Origin: a virus
IMG/VR virus record: IMGVR_UViG_3300025897_000087
Span: 1 to 24,404 of that record
Length of the DNA stretch: 24,404 nt
Direction: 5' to 3' (one strand)
Shown here one piece after another: positions 2-21,761 of the stretch (positions are counted from its first letter, which is position 1; every line of letters starts with the position of its first letter). Below the pieces are notes generated by a model. That model worked only from the letters and a program-made list of their open reading frames with translations. It was not told the origin of the DNA and ran no database searches. The position numbers and the translations under genes were made by a program.

Positions 2-1285
2 GCTTCTCTATATGAGAAAATGCGTATCGGCGCTGGAGATTCAGAAGGCATTGACGTTTTTTCTGATTTAAACGTTAATGGTCTCACCACACTTGACTCG
101 ACCACGATTGATGGTACATTATCCATAAATCCTGTCGGAACGCAGTCTGTAATTTTCGGAAACAATCAAACTACATTTAGTAACAGAGATATTTTAATTC
201 AGTCCAAACTTACTACTAGTGATTCTGTTAGTTTTGGAGAGCCTCCTATGGTTTCTTCAGGCGGTACAGGATTGAGAACAAAGATTGGCGGAGAATTATT
301 ATATGGTGATCCTAATGTAGATAGATTAGCGTTTACAAATGGTGCGGGAACCAACGCTATTCTTAGTCATAATGGCAATGTCCCAGTATGGATTTCTACT
401 GCGCCGTTTTTAAATGCTAATTCTGTAACCCTAAACGCTGTTCCTGTTAATGATAATGATACTGTTTTTCCTCTGTTCAGAAGACAAAACACTGCGGGTG
501 AAGACAGTGTAGAGTTTGATACTGATTTTTTCTATAATCCTTCTTCTAATAGATTAGACGTTGGCGTATTAGACGTAACTACTGCTATAACAGCAGATAC
601 TCTCGAAACTTCTGGCAATATTATTGTTAATGGAGTTTCAAATCTTGACTCGGTAAATGTTATTGGCGACCTACAATTATCAGGAGATGCATCGTCTGTA
701 GGAAGGTTACTCGATAGTGCAGGAAGGTCTTTTGTAGTCTTTGATTCTGCTGGACAATTACTTTGGGGTAATGATGGAACGGGCGGCACACCTGCTGGCG
801 GTGGTGGCGGCGGAGCAGGCGGTGGTGGTGGTGGAATTGCATTCACCGATTTAGAAGTTATACAGCAATCTGCTTCTGGTGGAGGTTCATTAACTTACAG
901 CGATAACGGTGTAACTGCCGGAGACTTTTTCTATTCTCCTGCAGAACTAGGCGATTTCGCTTTTAGTGCAACACAAATAGATAATACGTCTGGCGCTTGG
1001 TCGGTAACCGATTCCGTAAGTTTTGCCAAAGCGGTAGCAATAACAGGAGACTTAATTGTTTCTGGAGAAATTATTGCTAACGGCGCAGGTACGCCAGAAA
1101 TTACTTCTGGTAGTGCGATCGAATTAACCGCAACTACTAGGGTTCAGGTTAACAATACTCCGTTCAGGTTAGCGACATTATCTGCAGATCCTGTGAGTGG
1201 TAGTGTAAATGGTGATATGTATTACAATACTACAACTCATAAATTTAGAGGTTATGCCAACAGCGCTTGGGTCGATTTAAACTAA
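2..1285 (+). CDS. Tail-fibre-like virion protein, 5' end outside the window
   Basis: The reading frame is open from base 2 and continues in from the left, so the ATG at 20 is probably internal. 427 residues are visible. They are rich in Asn, Thr, Ser and Gly, with short beta-type repeats such as SDSVSFGE and TDSVSFAKAVAITGD, as in phage fibre shafts. A run of 12 glycines broken by one alanine (bases 797-835) forms a flexible linker. The C-terminus contains NGDMYYNTTTHKFRGYANSA, a type of ending I recognise from many marine phage fibre proteins. It is followed after 9 bases by the S8 protease gene, and both precede neck gene 13, the place of fibritin in T4. A fibre or whisker role is inferred from composition and position only. 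Confidence 0.75.
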   Translation, partial: ASLYEKMRIGAGDSEGIDVFSDLNVNGLTTLDSTTIDGTLSINPVGTQSVIFGNNQTTFSNRDILIQSKLTTSDSVSFGEPPMVSSGGTGLRTKIGGELLYGDPNVDRLAFTNGAGTNAILSHNGNVPVWISTAPFLNANSVTLNAVPVNDNDTVFPLFRRQNTAGEDSVEFDTDFFYNPSSNRLDVGVLDVTTAITADTLETSGNIIVNGVSNLDSVNVIGDLQLSGDASSVGRLLDSAGRSFVVFDSAGQLLWGNDGTGGTPAGGGGGGAGGGGGGIAFTDLEVIQQSASGGGSLTYSDNGVTAGDFFYSPAELGDFAFSATQIDNTSGAWSVTDSVSFAKAVAITGDLIVSGEIIANGAGTPEITSGSAIELTATTRVQVNNTPFRLATLSADPVSGSVNGDMYYNTTTHKFRGYANSAWVDLN

Positions 1286-1294
1286 GGAGTAATC

Positions 1295-3412
1295 GTGGAT
1301 AAGTTTTATTTAGTACTCTACGATGAAACGAATAAAGAAACTTTTTTATCGGATCATCCTGAAATAAATATAAGTTCTTCTTTAAATAATTTTCCAAATA
1401 TGTTAGTTGCATTCGGAGAATCAGTAGAAGAATTTGCATCTTATTCAGAAATTAAAACATGTTATAATGCTTCGAAAACAGAAGCAAAACATATACCTGA
1501 GTCTGTTGCAGAACCTACTACACTAACGTCAAATTTTACTATGAGAATTCCGGCGGCCACAGAAAACGGTTCGGAATATGCCAACATGACTCATATTAAA
1601 CATACAGGAATGAAAGACGAACTTTCTCCTAACACATATGGTCTTGCTAATAATGATACAGACACTAATGTTGACGCGACATATACAAATTATTGGACAG
1701 GAAAAAACATAGATGTTTTTATATTAGATCCTGGGTCATCTTTTGGGTCGGGGAGCAATTCAATATTTCCCAGCGATCACCCTAATTTTGATGATTTAGA
1801 CAATCCAGGCAACACCAGATATCGAAGAGTTAATTGGAGCTTGTATGATTCGGGGTTGTCTTCTACTAATAAGGGCACAAATCAAACTTTACAAACCGGA
1901 ACCGAAACTCATTTTGCGGTTCACGCTTCGGGGTGTGCAAACGTTTCTTGCGGCATTTATTCTGGATTTGCCAAAAGAGCAAATATTTATGGAATGCAAT
2001 TCAACAGTGCATCTACAATTGCAGAAATTTTAAATGCGATTATTAGTTGGAATTCAGCAAAACCTGTTAATCCTGAAACTGGATTTAAGAACCCGACCAT
2101 CTTGACTAATAGCTGGGGGCAACCATATGACCTTCAAGGTTTTCTTAATTTTGATAATATTACAAGCGTAGTTAAAGACGGCGTTACTACTAATAGACCC
2201 GGATCTACTTGGGATTTTGATTACAGCGCATTTGTTGATGCAGGAATTATACCTGTTTCTGCTTTTCAGTCAGACGATCGCGTACCATATGATGGTTTGT
2301 TTTTTCCATACCAAAACGAAGATATTAATCCAAGAGCGGGCGACACCGAAGTTGTAGCAAATTTATTTGCAACGGCATGGGATGCTGGTATAACAAATTT
2401 TATGTCTGCTGGGAATTATCCTCTTGCAGTAGGAAGTGAAGAAACAGAATCTAATAATTATGTCGTTTGGGAAGAAGGACTGGGAAATTACGAAAGACAA
2501 ATTACCACTAGAAATATCAACATGTTTAGAAATGATGGGTTCACTGATTTGGCCGGATCTGCTTTACATCCAACAAATCCTGAAAACATATACTATCATG
2601 GATTTCGTTCTAGAATTCATTATTGGATACCCCAAAACAAAAGAATAGTGGTGGGCGCTCTTAACAGTTCTGGAGTTCATTATTTTATAGAAGGATATAG
2701 TGCAAGAGGACCAGGAGTAGATTTATATGCACACGCTACAGCAACATGGTCCGGATATGCTTCTACTGATGGTAGTTTAACTTATAATGACGGTTTTGAA
2801 TGGAGAATGTTTGGCGGAACATCTTCTGCCACTCCAGTAACTGCAGGAATGGCAGCGTGTTATGCAGAATACTTTTATCATAAAAATAACAGATATCCAA
2901 CTCCTTCGGAATTAAAATCTCTTTTAATTGATAATGCTTTAGACGGTGTAATTCGCGAAGATCCACCAGAATCCAATTGGTCTTTTACTGATCTTGAATG
3001 GGATCAAGTAAGTCCTGCCACTTTGCTAATTGATGGTGTTCAAGCGAATCAAGTTATTGGTAAATATCCTTTTTCTTCTTCATCTATTGCTGAAGGATAT
3101 TATTATACATCGAAAAGGTTTAATCAATGGGCGTCCCAGTCGCCGTCGACCCCCCTTACTGTAAGTGGGCTTTTCCGCCAAATCGATCCATTTTTTAATA
3201 AGGGATATTCGACTATGTCTCTTATGCTCGGCAATGGCAATAATAAGGTTTTATATATGCCGGACGAAATACGATTAACTGGAAATGAAGATCCCCCACC
3301 CCCGCCATCTGGCGGAGGCGGCACTAACGAAGACAGTGGTCCAGGAATTTATCGTGTAAAAGGTTCGGGCGGAAATATAAAAAATGGGATAACTTTAAAA
3401 TTTAATTCTTAG
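1295..3412 (+). CDS. Virion-type subtilisin-like (S8) serine protease
   Basis: This is a 705-residue protein with a GTG start, five bases after a strong AAGGAG. The subtilase triad can be read directly. Asp145 is in DVFILDPGSS, His210 is in HASGCANVSCG (compare the family pattern HGTxxA), and Ser510 is in FGGTSSATPVTAGMAA. The oxyanion Asn374 sits in MSAGNYPL. The protease domain spans roughly residues 135-550. The first 130 residues could be a propeptide or an attachment domain. No signal peptide or membrane segment is visible, so it acts in the cytoplasm or on the particle. The C-terminus has a PPPPPSGGGG linker (667-676) and then a short Gly-rich end. The gene lies among structural genes just before neck gene 13, which suggests a virion component that cleaves phage or host-surface proteins. 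The substrate is unknown. Family assignment is firm, role is inference. Confidence 0.88.
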   Translation: MDKFYLVLYDETNKETFLSDHPEINISSSLNNFPNMLVAFGESVEEFASYSEIKTCYNASKTEAKHIPESVAEPTTLTSNFTMRIPAATENGSEYANMTHIKHTGMKDELSPNTYGLANNDTDTNVDATYTNYWTGKNIDVFILDPGSSFGSGSNSIFPSDHPNFDDLDNPGNTRYRRVNWSLYDSGLSSTNKGTNQTLQTGTETHFAVHASGCANVSCGIYSGFAKRANIYGMQFNSASTIAEILNAIISWNSAKPVNPETGFKNPTILTNSWGQPYDLQGFLNFDNITSVVKDGVTTNRPGSTWDFDYSAFVDAGIIPVSAFQSDDRVPYDGLFFPYQNEDINPRAGDTEVVANLFATAWDAGITNFMSAGNYPLAVGSEETESNNYVVWEEGLGNYERQITTRNINMFRNDGFTDLAGSALHPTNPENIYYHGFRSRIHYWIPQNKRIVVGALNSSGVHYFIEGYSARGPGVDLYAHATATWSGYASTDGSLTYNDGFEWRMFGGTSSATPVTAGMAACYAEYFYHKNNRYPTPSELKSLLIDNALDGVIREDPPESNWSFTDLEWDQVSPATLLIDGVQANQVIGKYPFSSSSIAEGYYYTSKRFNQWASQSPSTPLTVSGLFRQIDPFFNKGYSTMSLMLGNGNNKVLYMPDEIRLTGNEDPPPPPSGGGGTNEDSGPGIYRVKGSGGNIKNGITLKFNS

Positions 3413-3620: not shown

Positions 3621-4382
3621 ATGGCGACTCCTGCGTCAAGGCAACAATTAATAGATTTCTGTTTGCGTCGTCTCGGCGAACCTGTCATTGAAATCAACGT
3701 AGATGTTGATCAGATTGAAGACAAGGTTGATGACTCTTTACAAATGTACAGAGAGTTTCATTCTGATGCGACATATCGCACATATCTCAAACATCAAATT
3801 ACGCAAACAGATGTAGACAATAAGTATATACCTATAAGTCCAAACATATTATATGTTTCTCAGTTGTTTCCGATCAATCCAACGTTTTCTACTATTAATA
3901 TGTTCGATATCAGGTATCAAATGATGCTTAATAGTTTGGGCGATTTTATGAATTTTGCTGGTGGTATGTCTTACTATTATCAAATGAATCAATATTTAGA
4001 TTTTTTAGACCAGATGTTATCAGGAACTCCTCAAACAACTTTTTCTAGAAGGCAAGACCGTTTGTATATCTGGGGCGAATGGAGTGAAAATTCTATATCA
4101 GCTTTGAAACCAGGCGATTATATAGTCGCTGAAGTTTACGAAGTAATTGATCCGGATTTACACACAAGTATATACAATGATATGTTCATTAAAAATTATA
4201 CTACTGCTTTGATCAAACAACAATGGGGTTTGAACATGTCTAAGTTTGAAGGTATGCAACTTCCAGGAGGCGTAACTATCAGCGGACGTCAGATATTAGA
4301 GGAAGCAAACACAGAAATTGAAAAACTTGAAGAAAAAATGCGGCTCGAGCAGGAGTTACCACCAGATTTCTTCGTAGGATAA
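3621..4382 (+). CDS. gp13: Neck protein gp13
   Basis: The 253-residue protein resembles T4 gp13 (309 residues), the head-completion/neck protein that binds under the portal once DNA is packaged and makes the docking site for the tail. Family features are the opening MATPASRQQLIDFCLRRLGE, the acidic helix with DQIEDKVDDSLQMYREFH, and the closing PPDFFVG. The last 45 residues form a charged helix rich in Glu. The start lies after GAGGATTAAAA and only two bases past the previous stop. It is followed four bases later by gp14, its partner in the neck ring, in the same order as T4. The protein is shorter than T4 gp13 but shows no break. Confidence 0.92.
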   Translation: MATPASRQQLIDFCLRRLGEPVIEINVDVDQIEDKVDDSLQMYREFHSDATYRTYLKHQITQTDVDNKYIPISPNILYVSQLFPINPTFSTINMFDIRYQMMLNSLGDFMNFAGGMSYYYQMNQYLDFLDQMLSGTPQTTFSRRQDRLYIWGEWSENSISALKPGDYIVAEVYEVIDPDLHTSIYNDMFIKNYTTALIKQQWGLNMSKFEGMQLPGGVTISGRQILEEANTEIEKLEEKMRLEQELPPDFFVG

Positions 4383-4386
4383 TTTA

Positions 4387-5301
4387 ATGGCAACGAATCA
4401 ATATTTCTCACAAGGTTCGCGGTCTGAACAGATCCTTTATGAAGATCTTATCGTCGAATCTTTAAAAATGTTTGGGCAAGATGTGTATTATCTTCCTCGC
4501 GAATCTATTGACGTAGACGACATTTTTAAAGATGAATCATCTGCTAGTTTTGACAATGCATACAAAATAGAAATGTACATCGAAAACATTGAAGGGTTTG
4601 ATGGTGAGGGAGATTTGTTCACGAAGTTCGGGGTAGAGATTCGTGACCAAGCAACCTTTGTTGTCGCCCGACGACGATGGAAAGAATTTATTGCTCCGTT
4701 AGAAAATGATCCTGGAGTAGAAGGCAAAGCGTTCTATAGACCAAGAGAAGGCGACCTGATACATTTACCATTATCTAATTCAATATTCCAAATAATGAAG
4801 GTGTTTGATGAAACTCCGTTCTATCAATTAAAAAATCTTCCTGTGTTTAGACTTAGTTGCGAATTGTATGAATATAGTAGTGAAGATTTTAATACGGGTA
4901 TCGAAGCAATAGACGCGGTTGAAAATTTTGGTTATAAGTATTTAATAACAGTGACGAATGAAGCAGGTATTGGTGGTATCCCAGGTACTTTTGTTGCGGG
5001 AGATCAAATAACGCAAACAAATGACGGGTATACGATGACTGCTGACGTTGTTGATTGGAATTCGGTTACACAAATTCTGACTGTTGTTAACGTAGGTTCT
5101 TCTGACGGATTACTTAGAGGATTTGGAACAACCAATCCTATAATTGCACAGAGAGGAGTAAACACTTCTGTGACTGCTACCGTAGTTTCTGTAGCGGAAG
5201 AAATAGAAAATTCTTCTAACGAAGTTCAGAATGATGAATTCGAAACTGTTGCTGATAGTATTTTAGACTTCAGCGAATCAAATCCATTCGGTGATCCATA
5301 A
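4387..5301 (+). CDS. gp14: Neck protein gp14 with a C-terminal insertion
   Basis: The 304-residue protein is the gp14 neck/head-completion protein, which joins gp13 below the portal. The N-terminal 175 residues carry the family core (SEQILYEDLIVESLKMFGQD, DVYYLPRE, FVVARRRWKEF, YRPREGDLIHLPL). The last residues, DFSESNPFGDP, match the ending I associate with marine T4-like gp14. Between them, residues about 182-268 form a Gly/Thr/Val-rich beta-type segment that probably accounts for the extra length over T4 gp14 (256 residues). The stop codon overlaps the gp15 start as TAATG, so translation is likely coupled. The insertion may be a small surface domain. That reading is inference. Confidence 0.92.
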   Translation: MATNQYFSQGSRSEQILYEDLIVESLKMFGQDVYYLPRESIDVDDIFKDESSASFDNAYKIEMYIENIEGFDGEGDLFTKFGVEIRDQATFVVARRRWKEFIAPLENDPGVEGKAFYRPREGDLIHLPLSNSIFQIMKVFDETPFYQLKNLPVFRLSCELYEYSSEDFNTGIEAIDAVENFGYKYLITVTNEAGIGGIPGTFVAGDQITQTNDGYTMTADVVDWNSVTQILTVVNVGSSDGLLRGFGTTNPIIAQRGVNTSVTATVVSVAEEIENSSNEVQNDEFETVADSILDFSESNPFGDP

Positions 5302-6908
5302 TGCTTGAATCATATTTTTATAATGAACGTATAAGAAAGGCAGTAGCGGTTTTCGGATCGCTGTTCAACAACATTTATGTTGTGCGCACTGACTCTGCTG
5401 GTGCTGTTTTAAGTCAGGTAAAGGTTCCTTTGTCGTATGCGCCGAAAAGAGATTTCATAGATCGTATAGCAAGAACAGATGTAGGCGAAGAACAAGAAAG
5501 GCAGATTGCTGTTAAACTTCCGCGTATGTCTTTTGAAATACTAGGAATGAACTATGATCCTCAAAGGCAGTTGCCAAAATTAAACAAAAGGATTATACCT
5601 GCTTCTACTGGGGCAAGTTCGGGGCAGGTCGTCTATACGCCTGTGCCATACAATATCAATTTTCAATTAAACGTATACGCTCGTAGTCAAGACGATGCGT
5701 TACAGTGCGTTGAGCAAATATTACCTTACTTCACTCCGCATTACAACCTGCAAGTAAAACCTTTAGATGGTTTTGATTTACAAGAAGATACGCCGATTAG
5801 GTTAGACGGAGTTGTTATACAAGACGACTTTGAGGGTGCGTTAGAGAATAGAAGAACAATTATATACACGCTTGACTTTGAGATGAGGTTAAACCTGTAC
5901 AAAGTTATCAACAGCGCTACCAATCTTATTACTCAAGCGACTACTAACTTTTACGATTACACGAACACGGGCGACCTTCTTACTTTTCTAGAATGTAATA
6001 CTAATATTGTTGAAGGCAATACTGGAACTATAACAGAAGATAGCGGTAGCGTTTCTAATACTCTGCGCGTCGAATATACACTCAATGGATTGTACGACTC
6101 TGCTAATAGTGTTATAGGAACACCGTTCAGTATCGCATCTGGCGATTCTGCTTCAAATGGTACAACGTCTATAGTGCCTTCTACTGGAGTTTGGACATAT
6201 ACTCCGAACGCAGATTTCTTTGGTGTCGATACCTTTGATGTATCTGTTGATGTCGGACAAAACGTTACTGAAAAATTCGCTGTAACTGTCAATGTTTCTG
6301 CGGTTAGTGATGCGGTCGACGACGCGTTCACTGTATTTAACAACGTGCCGACTATAGTAGATGTTTCTACAAATGACACATTTGAAACTACAGGAGACAT
6401 AACCCATACAATAGAAGATCCAGGATCGTCAACAGTAACTATTTCTAATTCACTTGCAGGTACTTTCAGTTATCTCGCGCCTGATTCGTTTATAGGAGTA
6501 ACTACTTGGGAATATCGCGCGTTACCCACAGGTGGCGCAGCAGAAACTGCTACGGTTACGATGACATGTGTAACTGGTCTTACGTATACAGTCTCTGTAC
6601 CAAACGGTATCGAAGGTACAACAGTACAAGCAACAATCACCACCAACTATGCAAATAATCAGACAGTAAACTGGTCGATTACTGGCGACAATAACACTAA
6701 CGGACGTATCTCTACAACCAGCGGAACTGTAACGATGGACGCGCTGAGCAAAACAGTTGACATTGTTATAGGTCAACCTGCAGGTGAACAGGGTACGGTA
6801 ACAAGCACGTTTACTATTTCAGACGCTGGTACAGACCACGATGCGCCATATAACAACGCGTTTGCTGCCGCAATCACTGCGTCAGATACGTTTGACGTTC
6901 TTGACTAA
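5301..6908 (+). CDS. gp15: Tail sheath stabiliser/completion protein gp15 with Ig-like extension
   Basis: Residues 1-220 correspond to gp15, which caps the top of the sheath and tube and joins the tail to the neck. They include MLESYFYNERIRKAVAVFGS, the VPLSYAPKRDFIDRI stretch and the PRMSFEILGMNYD motif. T4 gp15 has 272 residues and this protein has 535. The extra part holds three beta-sandwich-like domains. Residues 250-336 contain a cadherin/VCBS-type signature (TYTPNADFFGVDTFDVSV). Residues 338-424 form a second Ig-like domain. Residues 428-535 form a module also seen twice in the next gene. The ATG overlaps the gp14 stop (TAATG), and the frame is unbroken from core to extension, so this is a real fusion. 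The extension probably projects from the neck/tail junction. Confidence 0.88.
   Translation: MLESYFYNERIRKAVAVFGSLFNNIYVVRTDSAGAVLSQVKVPLSYAPKRDFIDRIARTDVGEEQERQIAVKLPRMSFEILGMNYDPQRQLPKLNKRIIPASTGASSGQVVYTPVPYNINFQLNVYARSQDDALQCVEQILPYFTPHYNLQVKPLDGFDLQEDTPIRLDGVVIQDDFEGALENRRTIIYTLDFEMRLNLYKVINSATNLITQATTNFYDYTNTGDLLTFLECNTNIVEGNTGTITEDSGSVSNTLRVEYTLNGLYDSANSVIGTPFSIASGDSASNGTTSIVPSTGVWTYTPNADFFGVDTFDVSVDVGQNVTEKFAVTVNVSAVSDAVDDAFTVFNNVPTIVDVSTNDTFETTGDITHTIEDPGSSTVTISNSLAGTFSYLAPDSFIGVTTWEYRALPTGGAAETATVTMTCVTGLTYTVSVPNGIEGTTVQATITTNYANNQTVNWSITGDNNTNGRISTTSGTVTMDALSKTVDIVIGQPAGEQGTVTSTFTISDAGTDHDAPYNNAFAAAITASDTFDVLD
5964..6905 (+). other. Region encoding the Ig-like C-terminal extension of gp15
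   Basis: This part of gp15 (residues about 222-535) lies beyond the family core. It is rich in Thr, Val, Ser and Asp, poor in Lys, and contains three successive beta-type domains. The final one ends ASDTFDVLD, matching the repeat end ATDTLQVLD in the following gene, so the stop codon falls at a domain boundary. Confidence 0.75.
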
Positions 6909-6916
6909 ATAAAACT

Positions 6917-9652
6917 ATGCATAACGGATTAGAAGACAAAAGAAGGCGAAGAATTAACTTGCGCGATAGGCGAGTCGAAGAAGTCTTGCCCGAGCATTTT
7001 GCTGCGGATTATCCTAAATTTATTTCTCTGCTTGAATCATATTATGAATTTGAAAACGAAAATGACCCTACTGAACTTTTAAATCATTTGTTCGAAACAA
7101 GGGATATTACTCAAACCGACCTTGACCTTTTAGCATTTATCGAAGATGAGTTATTGCTAGGCGAAGCATACTTTGAAGGGTTCCCTGATCCTAGAGCGGC
7201 AGCGAATTTTTCTAGTATATTGTTTAGGTCTAAAGGATCAAAGTATTCTATTGAGTGGTTTTTTAGAGCATTTTTTAACGAAGACGTTGAAGTAATTTAT
7301 CCAAAGAAAAATATTTTTAATATTGGAGAATCACAAATAGGTCCTGATTCTTTAAGATATATTACCGATAATAAATTATATCAAACGTTTGCTATACTTT
7401 TAAAAACGGGACGCTCTATTTCTGAATGGAAAGACATCTACAAGTTATTTGTTCATCCGGCAGGCATGTATCTTGGTGGTTCAGTTTTAAAAATTATGAA
7501 CGAAGAACTTCAGACATTAGATTCTGCAGAAACTGGTACGAGATTAACTCCGGCATATTCTATAATCGGAGGAAGTTCAAACGAAGGTACGACTGGCACA
7601 GTAACAGTTAATGCTACAAATTCTCCGGATACGAATTTAAGATATTACATTGAACATCTATCTACTTCCCCGACAGATTTTGTTGTTCCTCGTCCACCGA
7701 CAGATTTATCTTCTGCAGGAAATATAACGATTACTTCAAATTCTGGATCTGTTGATTTAGAATATGCGTCAGATTTATTGGTCGAAGGAAATGAAGTTTT
7801 TGCTTTTAAATTGTATGATTGGGAAGGAAGGAAATTAGATTCTGCGAATATAAACATCAACGATGTCGTTCCTCAGTACACCGTTAATTTAGATGCAACT
7901 AGCATAACAGAAGGCGCTGCCATAACAGGAGAAGTAGTTTCCGACGACCCTCAAAACGAAGTAGTGACATTGTCGATTATTGGCGCATTATCAGGAAATT
8001 CGAGAATTTCTTCTCCTGGTACAGTTACAATGACCAGCAGTCCTCAACCGTTTTCTATTGCTACAACAGCAAATGCAGCTGCTCAAGGACCGCTCACTGG
8101 CCAAGTTCAAGCTTCTTCTGCGTTTGATACAGAACCTTCGGCAACTTTTACTTTAAACGATGGACCTGCTTCTTATACTTTATTTTCTCCTTCATATTTG
8201 TATAGCGAAGGGAATACAATATCTTTTAATGTTTCGGGAAGCAACGTTCCTTCTGGAACATATAAACTTAGACTTGCTGAAGAGGGTACAGCAGATAATA
8301 CAGATTTTGTTGAAGACGTTTCATCGGCGTTAAACCTATCAGTTACTACCGCTGTTAGCGGAACTTTAGGATCGACTACAGCAACTCTAACTAATACAGC
8401 AGATAATCCTGAGTGGTTTTCTGCAAAATTATACGATCCCACCAATGTTACAAAATTAGATAGTGTTACGATCAATATTGCTGGGGCGTTGACGCCAACA
8501 TATTCTGTTTCTGCGCCAGATACAGTAGAAGGAAAACAAATACCGTTTACCTTAACTCCGACTAATGCTAATGGAGAAGATGTTAGTTGGTCTTTTATTA
8601 GCGGAACCACTAACAGAATTGTGAATGGAGATTCTACAGGAACAGTTTCTTCTGTTAACGGAACAACTTCTTTTGGGGTTCGTTTGCGAGACGATGATTA
8701 TGATTATGGGGCAGGAGGAACTTCTTTAACTGTTCAAATTCAAGGCGTATCTTCTGGTAGCACAGCAACCGATACTCTTCAAGTATTAGATTCTGATGCA
8801 GTTTATACTATATCTGTTAATAACACTACACCGACCGAAGGCAATACGCTTACTTTTACAATCGGAGGAACAGATTGGAGTCAATCGCCGATTTATTTAC
8901 AGTTCGTACCCGTCGTAGGTGCGATATCAACAGCAGATTTCACAAATCCTTCCGCCGGATCTGTAGCTCCTATTAGCGCTAAGCAAGCAATTACAACTTC
9001 TGGAAACCCTGCTTCGGCATCATACACGATTGATCTTGTAGATGACGCTGTTACAGAAACAGAAAGTTTTACTGCTAAATTATATACTAGTTCTGGTTCT
9101 TCTACTCCTGTTGCAACTACGCCTACGATTACTATAAACGATGGAGTAGCAATACAAACGAGCGATGGTTATGTTATGTTTTTACCAGGAACCACTAGTG
9201 TATCAACTACTTCATCTGGAATTACTTCGGTACTTGATTTTAACGCTGATGGCACGTTTGTAGTAGGATTTCCAAGCGCTCCTACAACAGGTCAGACAGA
9301 AGCATACGCTCCTCCTGAAGACCTAATGGGTCCGTGGGAAGGTCGTTGGTGCACTGGATCATTTGGAAGTCAATACCAGATAAACGTTTCGGCGATTGCT
9401 TCCGGTGAAGCGCGTTTTGATACGGGTATAGGAACAGGAAATAACGATTCTTTTAGTACTTGGATTGGTTTAGATACTGATCGAGAATTTACCGCTGCTC
9501 TCTCAGCAACCGATAGTTTTCAAGAAAACGGGTCAGTCTCATATGAAATCCACATCAAAACCTGGGATGGCACTGGGGGCAATTTAGGTGCTGGCACTAC
9601 TGTTATGCAAAAAACATATAACGTCAATCTTGAAGCTAGGAGAGGATCATAA
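6917..9652 (+). CDS. Large virion structural protein with five alternating Calx-beta/Ig-like repeats
   Basis: The protein has 911 residues. Residues 1-200 form a conserved mixed helical domain (RRVEEVLPEHFAADYPKFIS, GSKYSIEWFFRAFF, LYKLFVHPAG-like end) that I associate with marine T4-like structural proteins. It probably docks the protein to the tail or baseplate. Residues 213-743 hold five repeats in the order A-B-A-B-A. Type A carries an EGN...FTAKLY pattern typical of Calx-beta domains. Type B resembles the last domain of gp15. Residues 745-911 form a separate beta-rich end domain with PWEGRWCTGSFGSQY and a WIGLDTDREF stretch. No Shine-Dalgarno is visible before the ATG, and there is no other in-frame ATG before residue 184. 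The stop overlaps the next start (TAATG). The role is inferred as a long projection such as a fibre. Confidence 0.8.
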   Translation: MHNGLEDKRRRRINLRDRRVEEVLPEHFAADYPKFISLLESYYEFENENDPTELLNHLFETRDITQTDLDLLAFIEDELLLGEAYFEGFPDPRAAANFSSILFRSKGSKYSIEWFFRAFFNEDVEVIYPKKNIFNIGESQIGPDSLRYITDNKLYQTFAILLKTGRSISEWKDIYKLFVHPAGMYLGGSVLKIMNEELQTLDSAETGTRLTPAYSIIGGSSNEGTTGTVTVNATNSPDTNLRYYIEHLSTSPTDFVVPRPPTDLSSAGNITITSNSGSVDLEYASDLLVEGNEVFAFKLYDWEGRKLDSANININDVVPQYTVNLDATSITEGAAITGEVVSDDPQNEVVTLSIIGALSGNSRISSPGTVTMTSSPQPFSIATTANAAAQGPLTGQVQASSAFDTEPSATFTLNDGPASYTLFSPSYLYSEGNTISFNVSGSNVPSGTYKLRLAEEGTADNTDFVEDVSSALNLSVTTAVSGTLGSTTATLTNTADNPEWFSAKLYDPTNVTKLDSVTINIAGALTPTYSVSAPDTVEGKQIPFTLTPTNANGEDVSWSFISGTTNRIVNGDSTGTVSSVNGTTSFGVRLRDDDYDYGAGGTSLTVQIQGVSSGSTATDTLQVLDSDAVYTISVNNTTPTEGNTLTFTIGGTDWSQSPIYLQFVPVVGAISTADFTNPSAGSVAPISAKQAITTSGNPASASYTIDLVDDAVTETESFTAKLYTSSGSSTPVATTPTITINDGVAIQTSDGYVMFLPGTTSVSTTSSGITSVLDFNADGTFVVGFPSAPTTGQTEAYAPPEDLMGPWEGRWCTGSFGSQYQINVSAIASGEARFDTGIGTGNNDSFSTWIGLDTDREFTAALSATDSFQENGSVSYEIHIKTWDGTGGNLGAGTTVMQKTYNVNLEARRGS
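7553..9145 (+). repeat. Five protein-level Ig/Calx-beta repeats, order A-B-A-B-A
   Basis: Repeats of about 100 residues begin at 7553 (A), 7874 (B), 8171 (A), 8495 (B) and 8798 (A). Type A units start with a YS/YT strand and an EG turn. Two of them end in FxAKLY, then LDS or ATT, then a TINI or TITIN strand, and the first has the close variant FAFKLY with NININ. Type B units start YTV/YSV, contain SI or SF after VTL/VSW and an NSRI/NRI turn, and end near a FTLND or LQVLD strand. Similarity is at protein level. No long exact DNA repeat is obvious. Confidence 0.7.
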
Positions 9653-10233
9653 TGGCAGTTGAATTTATAAGTTATCTCGGAGGCGACTATGGTAGCGGAT
9701 CCAGTTTTCTTCCTTTCTACTCGACTGGCGTTGATCATCAATTAGGAATAGTTTTCCATGGCAGCTCTGGCGCTGGTAATAACCTTAGTGAGACTACAGA
9801 TCAGAATGCTGTTGCAAGAGAAAGAGGAACCTGGAGATACGAAAAATCTACTCCTAATCCCTCCTTTAACGATTTAGATGAAATTCAAGATAACTATGTT
9901 AAAAATCCGATGATAGATTCTTTGAATTTTGATAACATTTGGATATATGCAGAAGAAATCGCTACACCTGCTGCCGAATCACCCCTCCAAGGCGGCAACA
10001 GCGGATGGGATGTTAATAATGCTGGGTTGGACCAATGGATCTCAATGGGCGCTCAGACCCGCTCTTGGACATTTAGTAGAAGCGCTGCAAATACCTCGTC
10101 CGAGGTTTACATCGGCACTTTAAAATTTTATTTCGTAGAAAGCGTCTCAACACCGACAACAGATCCTTCAACAGGAGTTACGAATGAGACTTATTTCGGA
10201 CAAGTTCAATTGACGTTAGGAGCATTAGTATAA
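9652..10233 (+). CDS. Beta-rich virion protein of unknown function
   Basis: The 193-residue protein begins MAVEFISYLGGDYGSGSSF and is rich in Gly, Ser, Thr and aromatic residues. It has no membrane segment, signal peptide or enzymatic motif that I can identify. Alternating hydrophobic strands at the C-terminus (VYIGTLKFYFVESV and TYFGQVQLTLGALV) suggest a beta-sandwich. The start overlaps the stop of the 911-residue gene (TAATG), with a strong AGGAGAGGA just upstream. The stop overlaps the small-terminase start in the same way. Tight coupling to a large structural gene suggests a partner or cap protein of that projection. I do not recognise the family. Confidence 0.78.
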   Translation: MAVEFISYLGGDYGSGSSFLPFYSTGVDHQLGIVFHGSSGAGNNLSETTDQNAVARERGTWRYEKSTPNPSFNDLDEIQDNYVKNPMIDSLNFDNIWIYAEEIATPAAESPLQGGNSGWDVNNAGLDQWISMGAQTRSWTFSRSAANTSSEVYIGTLKFYFVESVSTPTTDPSTGVTNETYFGQVQLTLGALV

Positions 10234-12275: not shown

Positions 12276-13991
12276 ATGGCAACCATACCAAGTGAGTCTC
12301 CCAACATTCTAGTCAAAGAAATTGACTTAACTGGGCAGGTACCAGGAGTCACTACTAGCACTGGAGCGTTCGTAGGAGAATATTCATGGGGTCCAACAAA
12401 TACTCCTGTTCTAGTTGGTAATGAAGCGCAACTAGCAGAAACGTTTGGTGCGCCCGGATTAGATTCAGCAGTATCTAGTAGAGATTTTTTAACCGGAGCA
12501 TATTTTCTAAAATATTCTGGCAGTTTATACAATGTTAGAGGAGTAGGAGCAGGCGCTACAAATTCGACTAATGCTGGATCGGCACAACTAATCGAAAATA
12601 GAACAGACTGGGAAACTGACGAACCCACTACTGGCGATTTTCATGCTAAATACCCAGGAAGTGTTGGTAACTCATTAGCAATTAAAGTTTGTTCAGGATC
12701 GTCAAACTTTGCCACATTTAATGCTGGAGTAGATTCTGCATTTGATGGACAACCAGAATCTTCTGTGTTTGTAAAACAATCGCAAGGCGTTACGACAAAT
12801 ACTATTTTTGACGAAATGCATATTGCGGTTGTTGATAGTGGCGGTGTGTTTACTGGGTCTCCTGGCACTGTTCTGGAAACATTTCCTTTTGTCTCTGCAG
12901 CAAACGACGCTAAAGCGCCAGATGGCAGCACAAATTATGCAAAAGATGTAATTAACGCTGCTTCCGAATATGTTTGGTGTCGTACTATTACTGGCGTTAC
13001 TGGATTTGGCGAAACTTCCACAAATATCGTTGGTTCAAATACCGACGCTAATACAAGTTTTGCATTGGGATCTGGATTAACCGGAACATATAGCGCGTCT
13101 TCGGTTCAATCTGGTTACGACGAATTTAATGACGGAGATAATATTCAGGTAGATTTTTTAATTACGCCTGGACAAGATACTACGGCGGACGTAACGACAG
13201 TAGCGAATGACCTTATTTCTATAGCAGAAGGTCCGTCTAGAAGAGATTGTGTTGTAACTGTTTCTCCAGGGTTAGATGATTGCGTTTCTCTTTCTCCTGC
13301 CGCTGCTACAAATGCAGTCAATCTTTGCGCTAACACTGTAACTCGAAGCAACTATACAATCTTCGATAATAACTGGTTGAAGGTTTATGACAAGTATCGC
13401 GATCAATATGTTTATATTCCAGCATCTTCTTCAACAGCAGGATTAATGGCTGCAGGCGATTTAACTGCAGATCCATGGTTCTCTCCTGCTGGTCAGAGGA
13501 GAGGAAGATATTTGGGTGTGACTGCTTTAGCATATAACGCTGATCGAGTTGGAAGAGATTTGTTGTATAAAAACGGTGTTAACCCAATTGTTAATCTACC
13601 TGGGCAAGGCGTTTTGCTTTATGGAGATAAAACGTTCCAGAACAGACCTTCTGCGTTCGATCGAATTAATGTTCGAAGATTGTTTTTAACAATTGAAAGA
13701 GCGATTAAAGGCGCAGCACAAAACGTGCTGTTTGAACTTAACGATGAATTTACTCGTGCTGAATTTGTCAACGTTGTAGAACCTTTCTTAAGAGAAGTTA
13801 AAGGAAGGCGAGGCATTACAGATTTCAGAGTTGTTTGTGACGAAACGAATAACACGCCATCTGTAATTGACGCAAACAGATTTGTTGCTAGTATCTTCAT
13901 TAAACCTGCACGTTCCATCAACTACATCACTCTTAACTTTGTTGCTGTAAGAAGCGGAGTTGAGTTTGAAGAAGTAGTCGGCACAGTTTAA
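12276..13991 (+). CDS. gp18: Contractile tail sheath protein gp18
   Basis: The 571-residue protein matches the T4-like tail sheath. The N-terminus SPNILVKEIDLTGQVPGVTT, then GAFVGEYSWGPTNTPVLV and RDFLTGAYFLKYSGSLYNVR, is characteristic. So are the C-terminal NVRRLFLTIERAIKGAAQNV and NDEFTRAEFVNVVEPFLREV stretches, which form the conserved inner domain. T4 gp18 has 659 residues. The deficit is most likely in the outer, variable protrusion domains. The protein polymerises around the gp19 tube and contracts to drive it into the host. AAAAGGAAA lies about ten bases before the ATG. The gene is led by its own late promoter and followed after 11 bases by the tube gene. Confidence 0.96.
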   Translation: MATIPSESPNILVKEIDLTGQVPGVTTSTGAFVGEYSWGPTNTPVLVGNEAQLAETFGAPGLDSAVSSRDFLTGAYFLKYSGSLYNVRGVGAGATNSTNAGSAQLIENRTDWETDEPTTGDFHAKYPGSVGNSLAIKVCSGSSNFATFNAGVDSAFDGQPESSVFVKQSQGVTTNTIFDEMHIAVVDSGGVFTGSPGTVLETFPFVSAANDAKAPDGSTNYAKDVINAASEYVWCRTITGVTGFGETSTNIVGSNTDANTSFALGSGLTGTYSASSVQSGYDEFNDGDNIQVDFLITPGQDTTADVTTVANDLISIAEGPSRRDCVVTVSPGLDDCVSLSPAAATNAVNLCANTVTRSNYTIFDNNWLKVYDKYRDQYVYIPASSSTAGLMAAGDLTADPWFSPAGQRRGRYLGVTALAYNADRVGRDLLYKNGVNPIVNLPGQGVLLYGDKTFQNRPSAFDRINVRRLFLTIERAIKGAAQNVLFELNDEFTRAEFVNVVEPFLREVKGRRGITDFRVVCDETNNTPSVIDANRFVASIFIKPARSINYITLNFVAVRSGVEFEEVVGTV

Positions 13992-17396: not shown

Positions 17397-19376
17397 ATGG
17401 CAATTATCACAGATCCTGATAATTTATTAGACGCTGGGGTCGACTCAGCGCAAAATATTTTTATCGACACTGCTTCAAGAACAATTAAAATAAGAAATAA
17501 TTCTGCTGCTCCATCTGGACCAGAATTAAATAATGATGGTGTAACACACCAAGCATTATACTCGTTCTTAAAAGAAGAATGGAAAAACGACACTAAGTCT
17601 AAAGACCTTATTGCCTATCCGTTTCCTCTAATCGCCATTACTCCCGAACAGTTCGAGTGGCGGTTTGGTTGGTCTCCTGCTGACGATTCGTCACGATCAC
17701 TGTTACGTACTGGTGGTTGGAGAGAATTTGATATTGACAACAGCACACAGTTAAGAGAATTCATTGGTACGATTTCTCTAGGCAATATTCAGGGTACTCC
17801 GACTCAGGGTGATGCTGCTACTGTTGTACAACACAAAGTATATTATGCGTTTTTTGATTCTGCTGATGGAACATCAAGCGCTGGTCCTTTCGATTACGAT
17901 TATGCTGGAGAAGTCAATCAAGCAGTTGAAACCTATCGAGATTTGAATGGTGATGGTACTCCCGACTTTGATCGTCGCGGCGATATTTTACGATTGTTTA
18001 CTCGTTCACAACCTTATACTGGACCAAACGCAGATCAACAGTCTAAAGCATGGACTTTTGATCAAACTGATACAACAGATATTGGTTTGGCGGCAGGCAC
18101 AACCCTTCCTTTTAATACTCAAAGATTCCCGTTGGTCGAAGGCGAAGACTTAAACGTAAAAGACAGAGATGGTGCTAGTATTACTGATGCTGTTATTGCT
18201 GCAGGGTTGGGCGCAGGACAAAAATATGCAAACGCTGGCGGTCCTACTATCGATTACCGTGCTGCTGATGTTGCATCAAGCACTTTAGGGTACTCAGAAG
18301 ATCTTCTGAGTGGTCCTTTCAATTTTGGTAATATTATTGACGCGACCTCTCCAACAGTTACGCAATTATCTAACTCTGAACTGTATAGTTGGGTTCAATA
18401 TAAATTGCGTCAAGATTCTGACATTGAATTTGCTGGTGGTACGGTTAAGAATGGTAAATTACAGGATGAATTATTGGCGTTTGTTGGACCTACTTTGACC
18501 ACAAAATTGGCGACTAACCTCGATCAATCTGGTTCTAAGCGTGGTACAGCGGTTACTAATATTCGTTCTGCTGATATTAACAACACGCAGTTACGAGATA
18601 CTGTTAATAATGCATTACAATCGTTTCCTTTCTCGGCGTCTGTTAAAGTCACTTTCTCAAATGATATACTTGCTGATAGTGATAACGCAAAAGCAACTGT
18701 ATTTTATGACTACACGCGAGAATATACAGGCACCAACATTATTATAGCAGACGCTGGTGCTGCTGCTGGTGACGCTACTAAAGATAGTTGTAACATTACA
18801 TTAACTGGATTTAGTACTACGCCGCTTCTTAGGGTTGGAACTCCAAACGGTCTCAATACTATTAGTAATCAAGCAGAGGACGCATATTTTAAAATAACTG
18901 GCGATGCTACTAATGCAGACAATAATGTTATTTTCGGTGTTACTTCGATATTCGATTCTGTTAGTTTTGCTGCGATTACTTTAGACGACACTCCCACTAT
19001 TGTAAACGTTCCTGGAGGAATTTCAGGAGGGACTATCAGAACACACCCAATTAATAGTCCTGCTTCGTTAAAAGTTGACTCAGCAGGTACTGCTGTTGAA
19101 AATACAGGCGGCGTTGTTTCGTTACTTGCAACTCCTCCGTTATATAACGGACCAGAAAACACTGTTAATTCCTTAGATGAACTTGTATTTTCATACTCTT
19201 ACGATAATAACTCTCAAAAAGATCGCGTAGCGAGTACTGATGTTGCAATTAATGTTCGCGCGATAGGGTTAAATTCTGGTCAGTGGGTACAACAAACCGC
19301 GAGTATCACACGTGTTAACGAAATTCCGGTGTCAGTAATTTCTGCTGTTGAAAGAAACTACAATAATCCAACGTAA
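17397..19376 (+). CDS. Large virion structural protein (marine T4-like type)
   Basis: The protein has 659 residues. The N-terminal third (IFIDTASRTIKI, GVTHQALYSFLKEEWK, YPFPLIAITPEQFEWRFGW, SLLRTGGWREFD) is a pattern I know from large structural proteins of marine T4-like phages. Those are annotated only as virion structural. The middle and C-terminal parts are Ser/Thr/Asp-rich and beta-type. The last residues are VERNYNNPT, with the RNYxNP motif shared with the protein at 19698. No enzyme motif, signal peptide or membrane helix is visible. It has a late promoter and GGAG ribosome site of its own, and another late box directly follows it. The precise place in the virion cannot be read from the sequence. 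Confidence 0.82.
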   Translation: MAIITDPDNLLDAGVDSAQNIFIDTASRTIKIRNNSAAPSGPELNNDGVTHQALYSFLKEEWKNDTKSKDLIAYPFPLIAITPEQFEWRFGWSPADDSSRSLLRTGGWREFDIDNSTQLREFIGTISLGNIQGTPTQGDAATVVQHKVYYAFFDSADGTSSAGPFDYDYAGEVNQAVETYRDLNGDGTPDFDRRGDILRLFTRSQPYTGPNADQQSKAWTFDQTDTTDIGLAAGTTLPFNTQRFPLVEGEDLNVKDRDGASITDAVIAAGLGAGQKYANAGGPTIDYRAADVASSTLGYSEDLLSGPFNFGNIIDATSPTVTQLSNSELYSWVQYKLRQDSDIEFAGGTVKNGKLQDELLAFVGPTLTTKLATNLDQSGSKRGTAVTNIRSADINNTQLRDTVNNALQSFPFSASVKVTFSNDILADSDNAKATVFYDYTREYTGTNIIIADAGAAAGDATKDSCNITLTGFSTTPLLRVGTPNGLNTISNQAEDAYFKITGDATNADNNVIFGVTSIFDSVSFAAITLDDTPTIVNVPGGISGGTIRTHPINSPASLKVDSAGTAVENTGGVVSLLATPPLYNGPENTVNSLDELVFSYSYDNNSQKDRVASTDVAINVRAIGLNSGQWVQQTASITRVNEIPVSVISAVERNYNNPT

Positions 19377-19697: not shown

Positions 19698-21761
19698 ATG
19701 ACCGTAGTCGTATTTGACACAAGAAACACCATCGACGCCGCCGATGCATTGACCAACTGGAACTTTTCAGTTAACAACAACGCACGTGATCTTTTTACGG
19801 CTGATCCCGATCCAATCGAAGCAACTGGGCACATTGGTATCGCGGTATCAACAGCAACCGAAGAAGGGTACTTCAACGGTACTATACCTAACAGTGGAGA
19901 TTTATCGAATACGCTTCTTTATATCTGGGGGCTTTCACAGGGCATTATGGACACCGAAGTAAACGGTGGTGTTCAAATTGTTTTAGGTGATGGTACTAAC
20001 CGAAGAGGATATCACGTTGGTGGCTCAAATGTGTCTAGTTTTCGACATCCTACAGATAACCCAAATTATGAGTGTCACGTATTAGACACGTCTAATCTTC
20101 CTACTGCAATAACTAACTTTCAGGGAGCGGGTGCACCAACACTTACCACAATTACTGAAGTAGGGCTTGCATTCAAAACGCTACAGGACGCAAAAGGTGG
20201 TACTGAAAACTGCTTTATCGATATCATGCGTTTCGGTACAGATGGCATAGAACTTACATCACAGACACTTGGTCAAATAATACGATTTGACAGTGTGGCG
20301 GCATACGACAGGAGCGGGCTTACAGGCAGGGCCAACGGCGCTATAAGAGAAATTGGTGACGGCGTTTTTTCTGCTCAAGCGAAAATAACGTTTGGCACTC
20401 TAGGCGATACTGTTGGTAGAAATTGTGATTTCTTGACAAAAAACGAAACGTTTTTGTGGGAATCAAGAGGGTTGTCTACGGATACTCGTTATGGTTTCGA
20501 AGTAAGAAAACGCGGCGGGGTCGGCGGAACTCCCGGCCGAGCCTCGTTTATTGCGGGTAATCGTGTGAGTCAAGGTGTTGGCAATCAGGGCACTACATTT
20601 ATTGCCAACTCAGCGTCTAATGCAAAGGCAAACTTTATTGCATCACAAATCAACCTCGACTCTGTTGGTATATACGGCTGTGTGTTTAGAGATTGGGAAG
20701 AATTTGTATTTCGAGGCGATGATAGTGCCGCAGTCGATACGGAAATATTTCAAACAGATTTTATTCAATGCGGCAATGTTGATTTAGGTCGTATTGAAGC
20801 ACGTAATTGTGGTTTCTTTTCTACTAAGGCTACGGGAACTACAACAGCCGCGGCAACATTTAACGACACAACTAATATGAGTGGTTTGTTCTTTTCTTCG
20901 GGAGGGGCAGGGCACGGGATTAACATCGACTCTGCTACTGCGAACCAAGAATTTACGTTTAGTAATTTCACATATAGTGGTTATGCGGCAACAACAGGAA
21001 ACACAGGAAACGAAGCATTAATTAATCTTTCAGGCGAACCTATTACAGTTCTCGTATCCGGTGGCGATGCTCCTACAGTCGATTCTGATGGTGTGCGTGG
21101 TCAAGTCACAGTTGTTAACAACATTACGACTACTATTTCCAGCGTTCTAGGCAATAGCGAAATCAAAGTGTTACCAACTGCTGGGTCACCATACTCAGGC
21201 AACACTCTTTCAGATTTCGCAAGTCCAATTGCTACTGAAACTGTTAGTGCAGACACAAACAGTGGTGACGGTGGTTCTAATTACATTGGTTACTCCAACA
21301 ACGGTGGTTTTGTTCAAATTGATGCCAACGGAACAAATGTTTTTAGTAATTTTCCCGGCGTACTTCAAGACACAAATTCAACAAATCCAAGAGCGTTAGC
21401 GGCAGGAGACACTGTGCGTGTTCTTATCAGAAACGATGCCGACAACCCATCATTACAATTATTTGATACGTTTGTGGTATCGGGTACACCAAGTGCATCA
21501 ACTATATTGACAACGACTTCATTTAGTGGATTTACCTCAGCATTTGGCACAACATTAAATAGTGCGAACAGTAAAACAGTCACCGTCGAAAAGGTTGATG
21601 CAAGATATCAATTCAGTGTTGCGAATGGAACGCAAATAGACTTCTTAACATATCGAATCGGTAGTGATTCTATTTTAACAACTGGACAGACAATTACTAG
21701 TGCTAACAGTTCGTTTCCTCTCTCACAAGTCGGTGACAGAAACTATAAGAACCCAGCATAA
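19698..21761 (+). CDS. Large virion structural protein with probable beta-helix region
   Basis: The 687-residue protein has an N-terminal beta-rich domain (residues 1-180: LLYIWGLSQG, GVQIVLGDGTNRRGYHVGGS). Residues about 225-460 contain repeated short turns with aromatic and Asn/Cys steps (NCDFLTKNETFLW, YGCVFRDWEEFVFRG, FQTDFIQCGNVDL, ARNCGFFST), as in right-handed beta-helix phage proteins. The C-terminal domain ends DRNYKNPA, sharing RNYxNP with the gene at 17397. The ATG directly abuts the stop of the 88-residue gene. No polysaccharide-lyase or hydrolase active site can be assigned by eye. It is likely a fibre, spike or head-surface protein. The fold is inference from composition. Confidence 0.78.
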   Translation: MTVVVFDTRNTIDAADALTNWNFSVNNNARDLFTADPDPIEATGHIGIAVSTATEEGYFNGTIPNSGDLSNTLLYIWGLSQGIMDTEVNGGVQIVLGDGTNRRGYHVGGSNVSSFRHPTDNPNYECHVLDTSNLPTAITNFQGAGAPTLTTITEVGLAFKTLQDAKGGTENCFIDIMRFGTDGIELTSQTLGQIIRFDSVAAYDRSGLTGRANGAIREIGDGVFSAQAKITFGTLGDTVGRNCDFLTKNETFLWESRGLSTDTRYGFEVRKRGGVGGTPGRASFIAGNRVSQGVGNQGTTFIANSASNAKANFIASQINLDSVGIYGCVFRDWEEFVFRGDDSAAVDTEIFQTDFIQCGNVDLGRIEARNCGFFSTKATGTTTAAATFNDTTNMSGLFFSSGGAGHGINIDSATANQEFTFSNFTYSGYAATTGNTGNEALINLSGEPITVLVSGGDAPTVDSDGVRGQVTVVNNITTTISSVLGNSEIKVLPTAGSPYSGNTLSDFASPIATETVSADTNSGDGGSNYIGYSNNGGFVQIDANGTNVFSNFPGVLQDTNSTNPRALAAGDTVRVLIRNDADNPSLQLFDTFVVSGTPSASTILTTTSFSGFTSAFGTTLNSANSKTVTVEKVDARYQFSVANGTQIDFLTYRIGSDSILTTGQTITSANSSFPLSQVGDRNYKNPA

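Follow-up and report, generated by a model that had tools for sequence, protein, structure and literature searches.

The fibre-subtilase locus and its surroundings

The DNA analyzed here (the window) comprises 24,404 nucleotides of the virus record IMGVR_UViG_3300025897_000087 and carries a cluster of neck, tail and packaging genes from a T4-like marine phage, in the order gp13, gp14, gp15, gp16, gp17, gp18, gp19 and gp20. The named phage with the closest portal gene is C48C1 (Kyanoviridae), with 72% nucleotide identity across 59% of the gene. The C-terminal 427 aa of a tail fibre of 1,835 aa are encoded on the plus strand at 2..1285 (the whole gene is found at L002:484-5991), and the last 143 aa of this fibre (854..1282, plus strand) form a tip domain designated type B. 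The next gene on the same strand (1295..3412) starts with GTG and encodes an S8 subtilase of 705 aa, as indicated by Pfam PF00082, PHROG 15006 and the core of an AlphaFold2 model. A Shine-Dalgarno sequence (AAGGAG, 1284..1289, plus strand) overlaps the stop codon of the fibre inside the 9-nt gap between fibre and S8 gene, and this gap is almost unchanged in a homologue with only 41% protein identity. The open reading frame 1295-3412 is a real gene.

The S8 gene is flanked by the long fibre on one side and by gp13/gp14/gp15 on the other. Its location in the structural cluster beside neck and fibre genes is therefore as described in an earlier sequence-only reading of this DNA, but the informative neighbour is the upstream fibre and not the neck genes. 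Elsewhere, fibre and S8 gene form a pair within clusters of baseplate or fibre genes that are separate from gp13. The position that S8 occupies in the window, ahead of gp13, is exchangeable, because in C48C1 (OQ984149, L012) it is filled by an unrelated fibre-like protein of 594 aa (3963-5747) and no S8 gene is present there. Confusion with the "tail sheath subtilisin-like domain" PF04984 was ruled out, as the sheath gp18 is encoded at 12276-13991.

Further downstream, gp15 of the window (tail sheath stabiliser, 5301-6908) carries a Big_9 Ig-like domain at its C-terminus. A comparison with L094 revealed a silent divergence (pS) of 0.735 for gp15, which far exceeds the 0.20 of gp13 and the 0.13 of the wedge gene, and an exchange of this part is therefore probable. 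The structural cluster also contains open reading frames at 9652-10233 (193 aa), 17397-19376 (659 aa) and 19698-21761 (687 aa) without a PHROG match.

Catalytic residues and predicted fold

The S8 protein matches Pfam Peptidase_S8 (PF00082) with an E-value of 2.6e-10 and 40.5 bits at a gathering cut-off of 21.8, and the profile of PHROG 15006, which is annotated as "tail fiber protein", with an E-value of 2.2e-43. Peptidase_S8 is its sole Pfam match; the profile of the T4 prohead protease gp21 and the profile or fold of T2-type gp38 were absent. The catalytic residues Asp145 (codon GAT, 1727..1729), His210 (1922..1924) and Ser510 (2822..2824, in the motif GTSSATP) as well as the oxyanion-hole Asn374 (2414..2416), all encoded on the plus strand, are present at the positions claimed earlier and in the order of S8 enzymes. 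Among 83 distinct relatives, the His, Asn and Ser columns are invariant (81/81, 81/81 and 80/80), whereas the Asp column contains Asp in 71 and Glu in 10 cases, and this conservation of the catalytic columns argues that the presence of the triad is not due to chance. The unusual His motif does read HASGCA, as noted before. However, a missing second His (H-x-x-G) is typical of the clade of the window protein (e.g., HGIGV or HGGGC), so HASGCA is a trait of the clade and on its own no sign of inactivity.

To obtain a structural model, we used AlphaFold2 with 42 sequences from the window and IMG/VR (mean pLDDT 65, pTM 0.69). The catalytic core (residues about 75-555; 1517..2959, plus strand) is well predicted and, as a global fold match, aligns with proteinase-K-type subtilases at a Z of 31.3 and an rmsd of 2.7 A, with 275 of 282 residues aligned. 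The protein is thus predicted to have a subtilisin fold, in a model whose mean pLDDT is just 65 and in which residues 554-648 and 661-704 are of low confidence. Taken together, the triad, the oxyanion Asn and the complete subtilisin-type core make it a well-supported prediction that the S8 protein is active.

The model also contains a feature that was missing from the sequence-only reading. Residues 2-58 are modelled as a beta-alpha-beta-beta-alpha-beta unit with a pLDDT of 80-89, followed by a disordered linker (residues 62-70) and the core, and this order of N-terminal fold, linker and core is that of an I9 prodomain. We therefore refer to residues about 2-62 (1298..1480, plus strand) as a putative I9-like prodomain, and the top Foldseek matches include the pro-forms pro-Tk-SP and EpiP. 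On the level of sequence the assignment is only suggestive: a profile of the family's N-termini ranked the prodomain chain of ProteinT (8c4z_A) first among 177,635 PDB sequences, with an E-value of just 0.83, and Pfam I9 had no match in the window protein and matches below the cut-off in relatives (E 0.03-0.15). The absence of a signal peptide, already noticed earlier, agrees with an average Kyte-Doolittle value of 0.74 for the most hydrophobic 15-mer of residues 1-60.

Relatives and the exchange of Asp and Glu

Scans of IMG/VR identified at least 579 stretches that encode relatives of the S8 protein, of which 80 were kept, and 50 loci nearer to the window were added. The named relatives all belong to marine phages, nearly all with cyanobacteria as host, and with the patterns used no relatives of the window clade were found in bacterial genome contigs. 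The forms with Glu in place of the catalytic Asp are confined to one clade (SH-aLRT 100), and the window protein is a member of this clade. In an enlarged set of the window clade, Glu occupies 33 rows, including a distant S8 gene on the minus strand of L111, and Asp three, which are the window protein and L103 with its partner L106. The sister of the window protein, L014 (41% identical), has Glu (GAA) instead of Asp (GAT). The Glu in these neighbours implies either a return to Asp in the window protein or an original Asp that was retained there and replaced in the neighbours, and the minimum number of changes that accounts for the distribution is two. In L103 (6980-8920) and L106 (1371-3311) Asp is kept together with altered motifs (HSVPCHS, GGNSGALP), and these are possibly degenerating enzymes.

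A comparison of the window with L003, whose S8 protein is 88% identical, gave a dN/dS of 0.61 for S8 and of 0.04-0.11 for gp13, gp14 and the wedge gene. Such a value fits a host-facing protein, since higher values are expected for this kind of protein. Thirty of the 51 amino-acid replacements fall into a variable extension at residues 556-640 (2960..3214, plus strand), where the silent changes are raised too; the block may have been recombined or may evolve fast. The C-terminal tail is almost unchanged between both proteins.

Two unrelated fibre tips are each followed by an S8 gene

In named as well as unnamed phages, S8 is immediately preceded by a gene for a fibre or pin protein, mostly with a distance of about 1 nt between stop and start codon. 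A 125-aa domain, named tip A, terminates 118 of 128 open reading frames upstream of S8, and it is located at the extreme C-terminus in 120/120 cases. After clustering of the S8 proteins at 80% identity, tip A is found directly upstream in 59 of 65 clusters. In the reverse searches, which started from the tips and made no use of S8, the next gene downstream was S8 for 77 of the 81 assessable open reading frames with tip A and for 79/80 loci with tip B, the tip type of the window; the S8-first and the tip-first samples both consist of the best-scoring matches and are biased in this respect. Tip B has no similarity to tip A, so both searches together indicate that two unrelated fibre tips each have S8 as the next gene.

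Tip A is predicted as a beta-sandwich (pLDDT 95.6), and there is no convincing match to it in the PDB (best Foldseek E-value 2.4e-4 with a viral turret; best Z 7.5, which is below a meaningful level). The idea that tip A is the obligatory partner of S8 was discarded, as the lineage of the window lacks it. In named phages the coupling of fibre tip and S8 is not absolute: S-BM3, Sf-CH1b, PSS2, S-CBS2 and S-CRES2 possess tip A and no adjacent S8 gene, and in P-SSM2, Sf-CH8 and S-SCSM1 the S8 gene follows a different fibre.

The C-terminal tail corresponds to the type of fibre tip

When the S8 gene follows a tip-A fibre, the catalytic domain of its product is succeeded by a short motif, typically RPxSGxxYPRP accompanied by basic residues (the PR tag). 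At a clustering level of 70% identity, [YFW]PR is present in 88/88 clusters with tip A and in 0/16 clusters with tip B (Fisher 4e-19, kinship ignored), and 13 of the clusters with tip A have a further domain appended after the motif. In the tree of catalytic cores, tip B is found on three distinct branches, and the PR tag is absent each time. One of these branches is the lineage of the window and L014, which joins the Glu clade of tip-A subtilases with a support of 100, yet has tip B. The tail of the window protein, RVKGSGGNIKNGITLKFNS (3353..3409, plus strand), is proposed to be a docking tag; the tail of the window lineage, RVKGSGGNIKNGITLKF, is like those of other subtilases behind tip B, RVRGPISLRGGLSIRF. 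When an HMM of tip-B tails was applied to tails that were not used for training, the window and L014 ranked first, with weak E-values of 0.023 and 0.037, and shuffled sequences scored as well in 0/1000 cases for the window and in 1/1000 for L014. No second copy of the S8 tail was detected among the open reading frames of the window.

Tip-A fibres that lack S8 as the next gene commonly have one or more other large structural proteins behind them, together with a small protein of 77-142 aa whose C-terminal RPxxGxLYPR tag is the same as that of tip-A subtilases. This arrangement was found in S-SCSM1, S-H9-1, S-BM3, Sf-CH1b, PSS2, L126, L203 and L214, with GQDRPATGQMYPRFNK in S-SCSM1 and GRPGTGQLYPRGNQ in Sf-CH1b as examples of the tag, and S-CBS2 and S-CRES2 are exceptions. 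Most simply, these observations would be explained by binding of the tag to tip A.

Proteins of 77-93 aa with RPxxGxLYPRG-like ends are encoded at L006:6881-7111, L126:4574-4837, L203:6689-6952, L214:2780-3058 and L226:18679-18918, in each case after a tip-A fibre and a large protein ending in ARTT. Tandem or fused copies of S8 in one operon were observed in L042 (791-3580 and 3593-5782) and L017 (1598-5620), and the second copy in L042 likewise bears the PR tag.

Fused domains and a possible link to the virion

A distant homologue of the window S8 protein with a third type of partner is ORF228 of S-SCSM1 (1411 aa), which combines S8 with Laminin_G lectin domains and is marked as "virion protein" in GenBank. 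The record contains 48 such notes, mass spectrometry of the virion identified 45 proteins according to the corresponding paper (PMC9602691), and several predicted structural genes have no note, so the notes are probably the mass-spectrometry list. Other relatives of S8 have fused esterase-like (BD-FAE) or cupredoxin-like domains. Esterase domains are fused to S8 in L029, L035 and L050, and ACG-2014h has weaker esterase/hydrolase matches. Combinations of S8 with esterase or alpha-beta hydrolase-like domains are encoded at L009:7347-10271, L029:3554-7963 and L050:3686-6631, and plastocyanin-like or Ig domains are also present in some of these fusions.

A possible role on the fibre tip

The pair of tip and S8, with ends that match, recurs in hundreds of related viruses and points to a protease that rides on the fibre tip and cuts host surface proteins from there. 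The sequence-only reading had offered maturation of fibres, trimming of host surface proteins and self-cleavage as possible roles. Trimming of the host surface fits best because of the near-obligate pairing with a tip, the virion label of the homologue and the fused lectin and esterase domains; self-cleavage is plausible since a prodomain-like fold precedes the core, and fibre maturation is the main rival. We infer docking, autoprocessing, the presence of S8 in the particle of the window phage and an extracellular substrate. S8 would be translated right after the fibre from its own ribosome site on a shared transcript. The putative prodomain would assist the folding of this secreted-type subtilase and keep the enzyme silent, and the C-terminal tail would dock on the C-terminal tip domain of the fibre. 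Auto-cleavage would then remove the prodomain, and the freed enzyme could cut host surface proteins during attachment or release. We give this picture of a virion-borne, prodomain-silenced subtilase that is docked by its tail and acts on the host surface an even chance of being correct.

As a more general and tentative proposal, which we consider possible rather than probable, interchangeable tip-specific docking tags mount enzymes on the fibres of marine phages. RPxSGxxYPR, in subtilases as well as in small adaptors, would fit tip A and other tails would fit tip B, and the window would represent a natural swap, in which a catalytic domain of the tip-A lineage is combined with a type-B tip and tail and has Asp within a Glu clade.

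Most of the same patterns would also be produced by a protease for fibre maturation that is recruited by the same tail to the new fibre tip, trims or releases its C-terminus and need not stay in the particle. One-to-one pairing and matching of tail and tip are also expected if the tip is the substrate. However, the fused lectin and esterase domains and the virion label of S-SCSM1 ORF228 would be superfluous for such a role, and the tips end at the same extreme C-terminal place in all 120 open reading frames with no obvious removable extension, so we regard maturation as unlikely. The missing signal peptide and the late operon would be in line with a host-directed protease that acts off the fibre, either intracellularly or at lysis, and is encoded in the late cluster for expression timing only. 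This is very improbable, as it accounts neither for the near-obligate adjacency to two unrelated tip types at many genome positions nor for the virion label of the homologue.

A catalytically dead remnant, in which the S8 fold is retained as adhesin or spacer, would be compatible with the Glu at the catalytic Asp position in most of the clade, the further changes around the motifs of L103/L106 and the relaxed dN/dS. On the other hand, His, Asn and Ser are invariant wherever relatives cover them, the window protein has Asp and L003 is unchanged at the triad columns covered (Asn374, Ser510), which makes a loss of activity rather improbable. S8 peptidases of cyanophages have been annotated since at least 2010 (PMC3037559), and the locus might be read as one more ordinary phage S8 peptidase next to a fibre by chance, but this is contradicted by the 79/80 and 77/81 loci from the searches without S8 and is hardly credible.

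Comparison with known systems and significance

S8 subtilases of the proteinase K, aqualysin and ProteinT type share with the window protein a common fold (Z 30-31), the triad, the oxyanion Asn and a prodomain-like N-terminus. In contrast to them, the window protein lacks a signal peptide, reads HASGCA where they have HGTHVA, is only about 22% identical, carries an extra C-terminal variable region with a tail, and is encoded in a phage fibre operon. Closer counterparts are the "subtilisin-like serine proteases" of cyanophages (PHROG 15006 / T4-GC 292; S-H38, S-H9-1, S-WAM2, S-CREM1, S-CAM1, P-SSM2), which are homologous over most of the length with 22-31% identity and are likewise encoded behind a fibre or pin gene. 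Most of them are combined with a tip-A fibre and carry the PR tag, whereas the window is a tip-B variant with another tail and differs from its nearest clade by the catalytic Asp in place of Glu. S-SCSM1 ORF228 also has an N-terminal S8 core directly behind a structural gene, but with two lectin domains appended and another partner.

The T2-type gp38 is an adhesin on the long tail fibre gp37, its gene lies directly downstream of the fibre gene and its product is thought to be located at the tip. Gene order and the idea of a tip protein are the same for S8, whereas gp38 is non-enzymatic and has another fold. Tailspike depolymerases such as LKA1 gp49 (PMC5701251) are enzymes of the virion that attack the host surface, as proposed here for S8, but LKA1 gp49 is a polysaccharide lyase fused into the spike and the window S8 is a separate protease. 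Phage S8 peptidases themselves are already known, without an assigned role, from GenBank annotation and the literature; Sullivan et al. (2010) list an S8 peptidase as T4-GC518 without the pairing to a fibre (PMC3037559). In the literature searched for phage S8 and tail fibre, no description of the pairing of fibre tip and S8, the tip-specific tails or the Asp/Glu variation was found.

The exchange of Asp and Glu provides a natural series for studies of the catalytic triad. Furthermore, the pairing with two unrelated tips and the match between tail and tip lead directly to the hypothesis of proteases that are mounted on fibres by plug-in tags. If this is true, the tag would help to find further tip-mounted proteins by sequence alone, and surface proteolysis would join polysaccharide degradation as a step in the entry or release of ocean phages.
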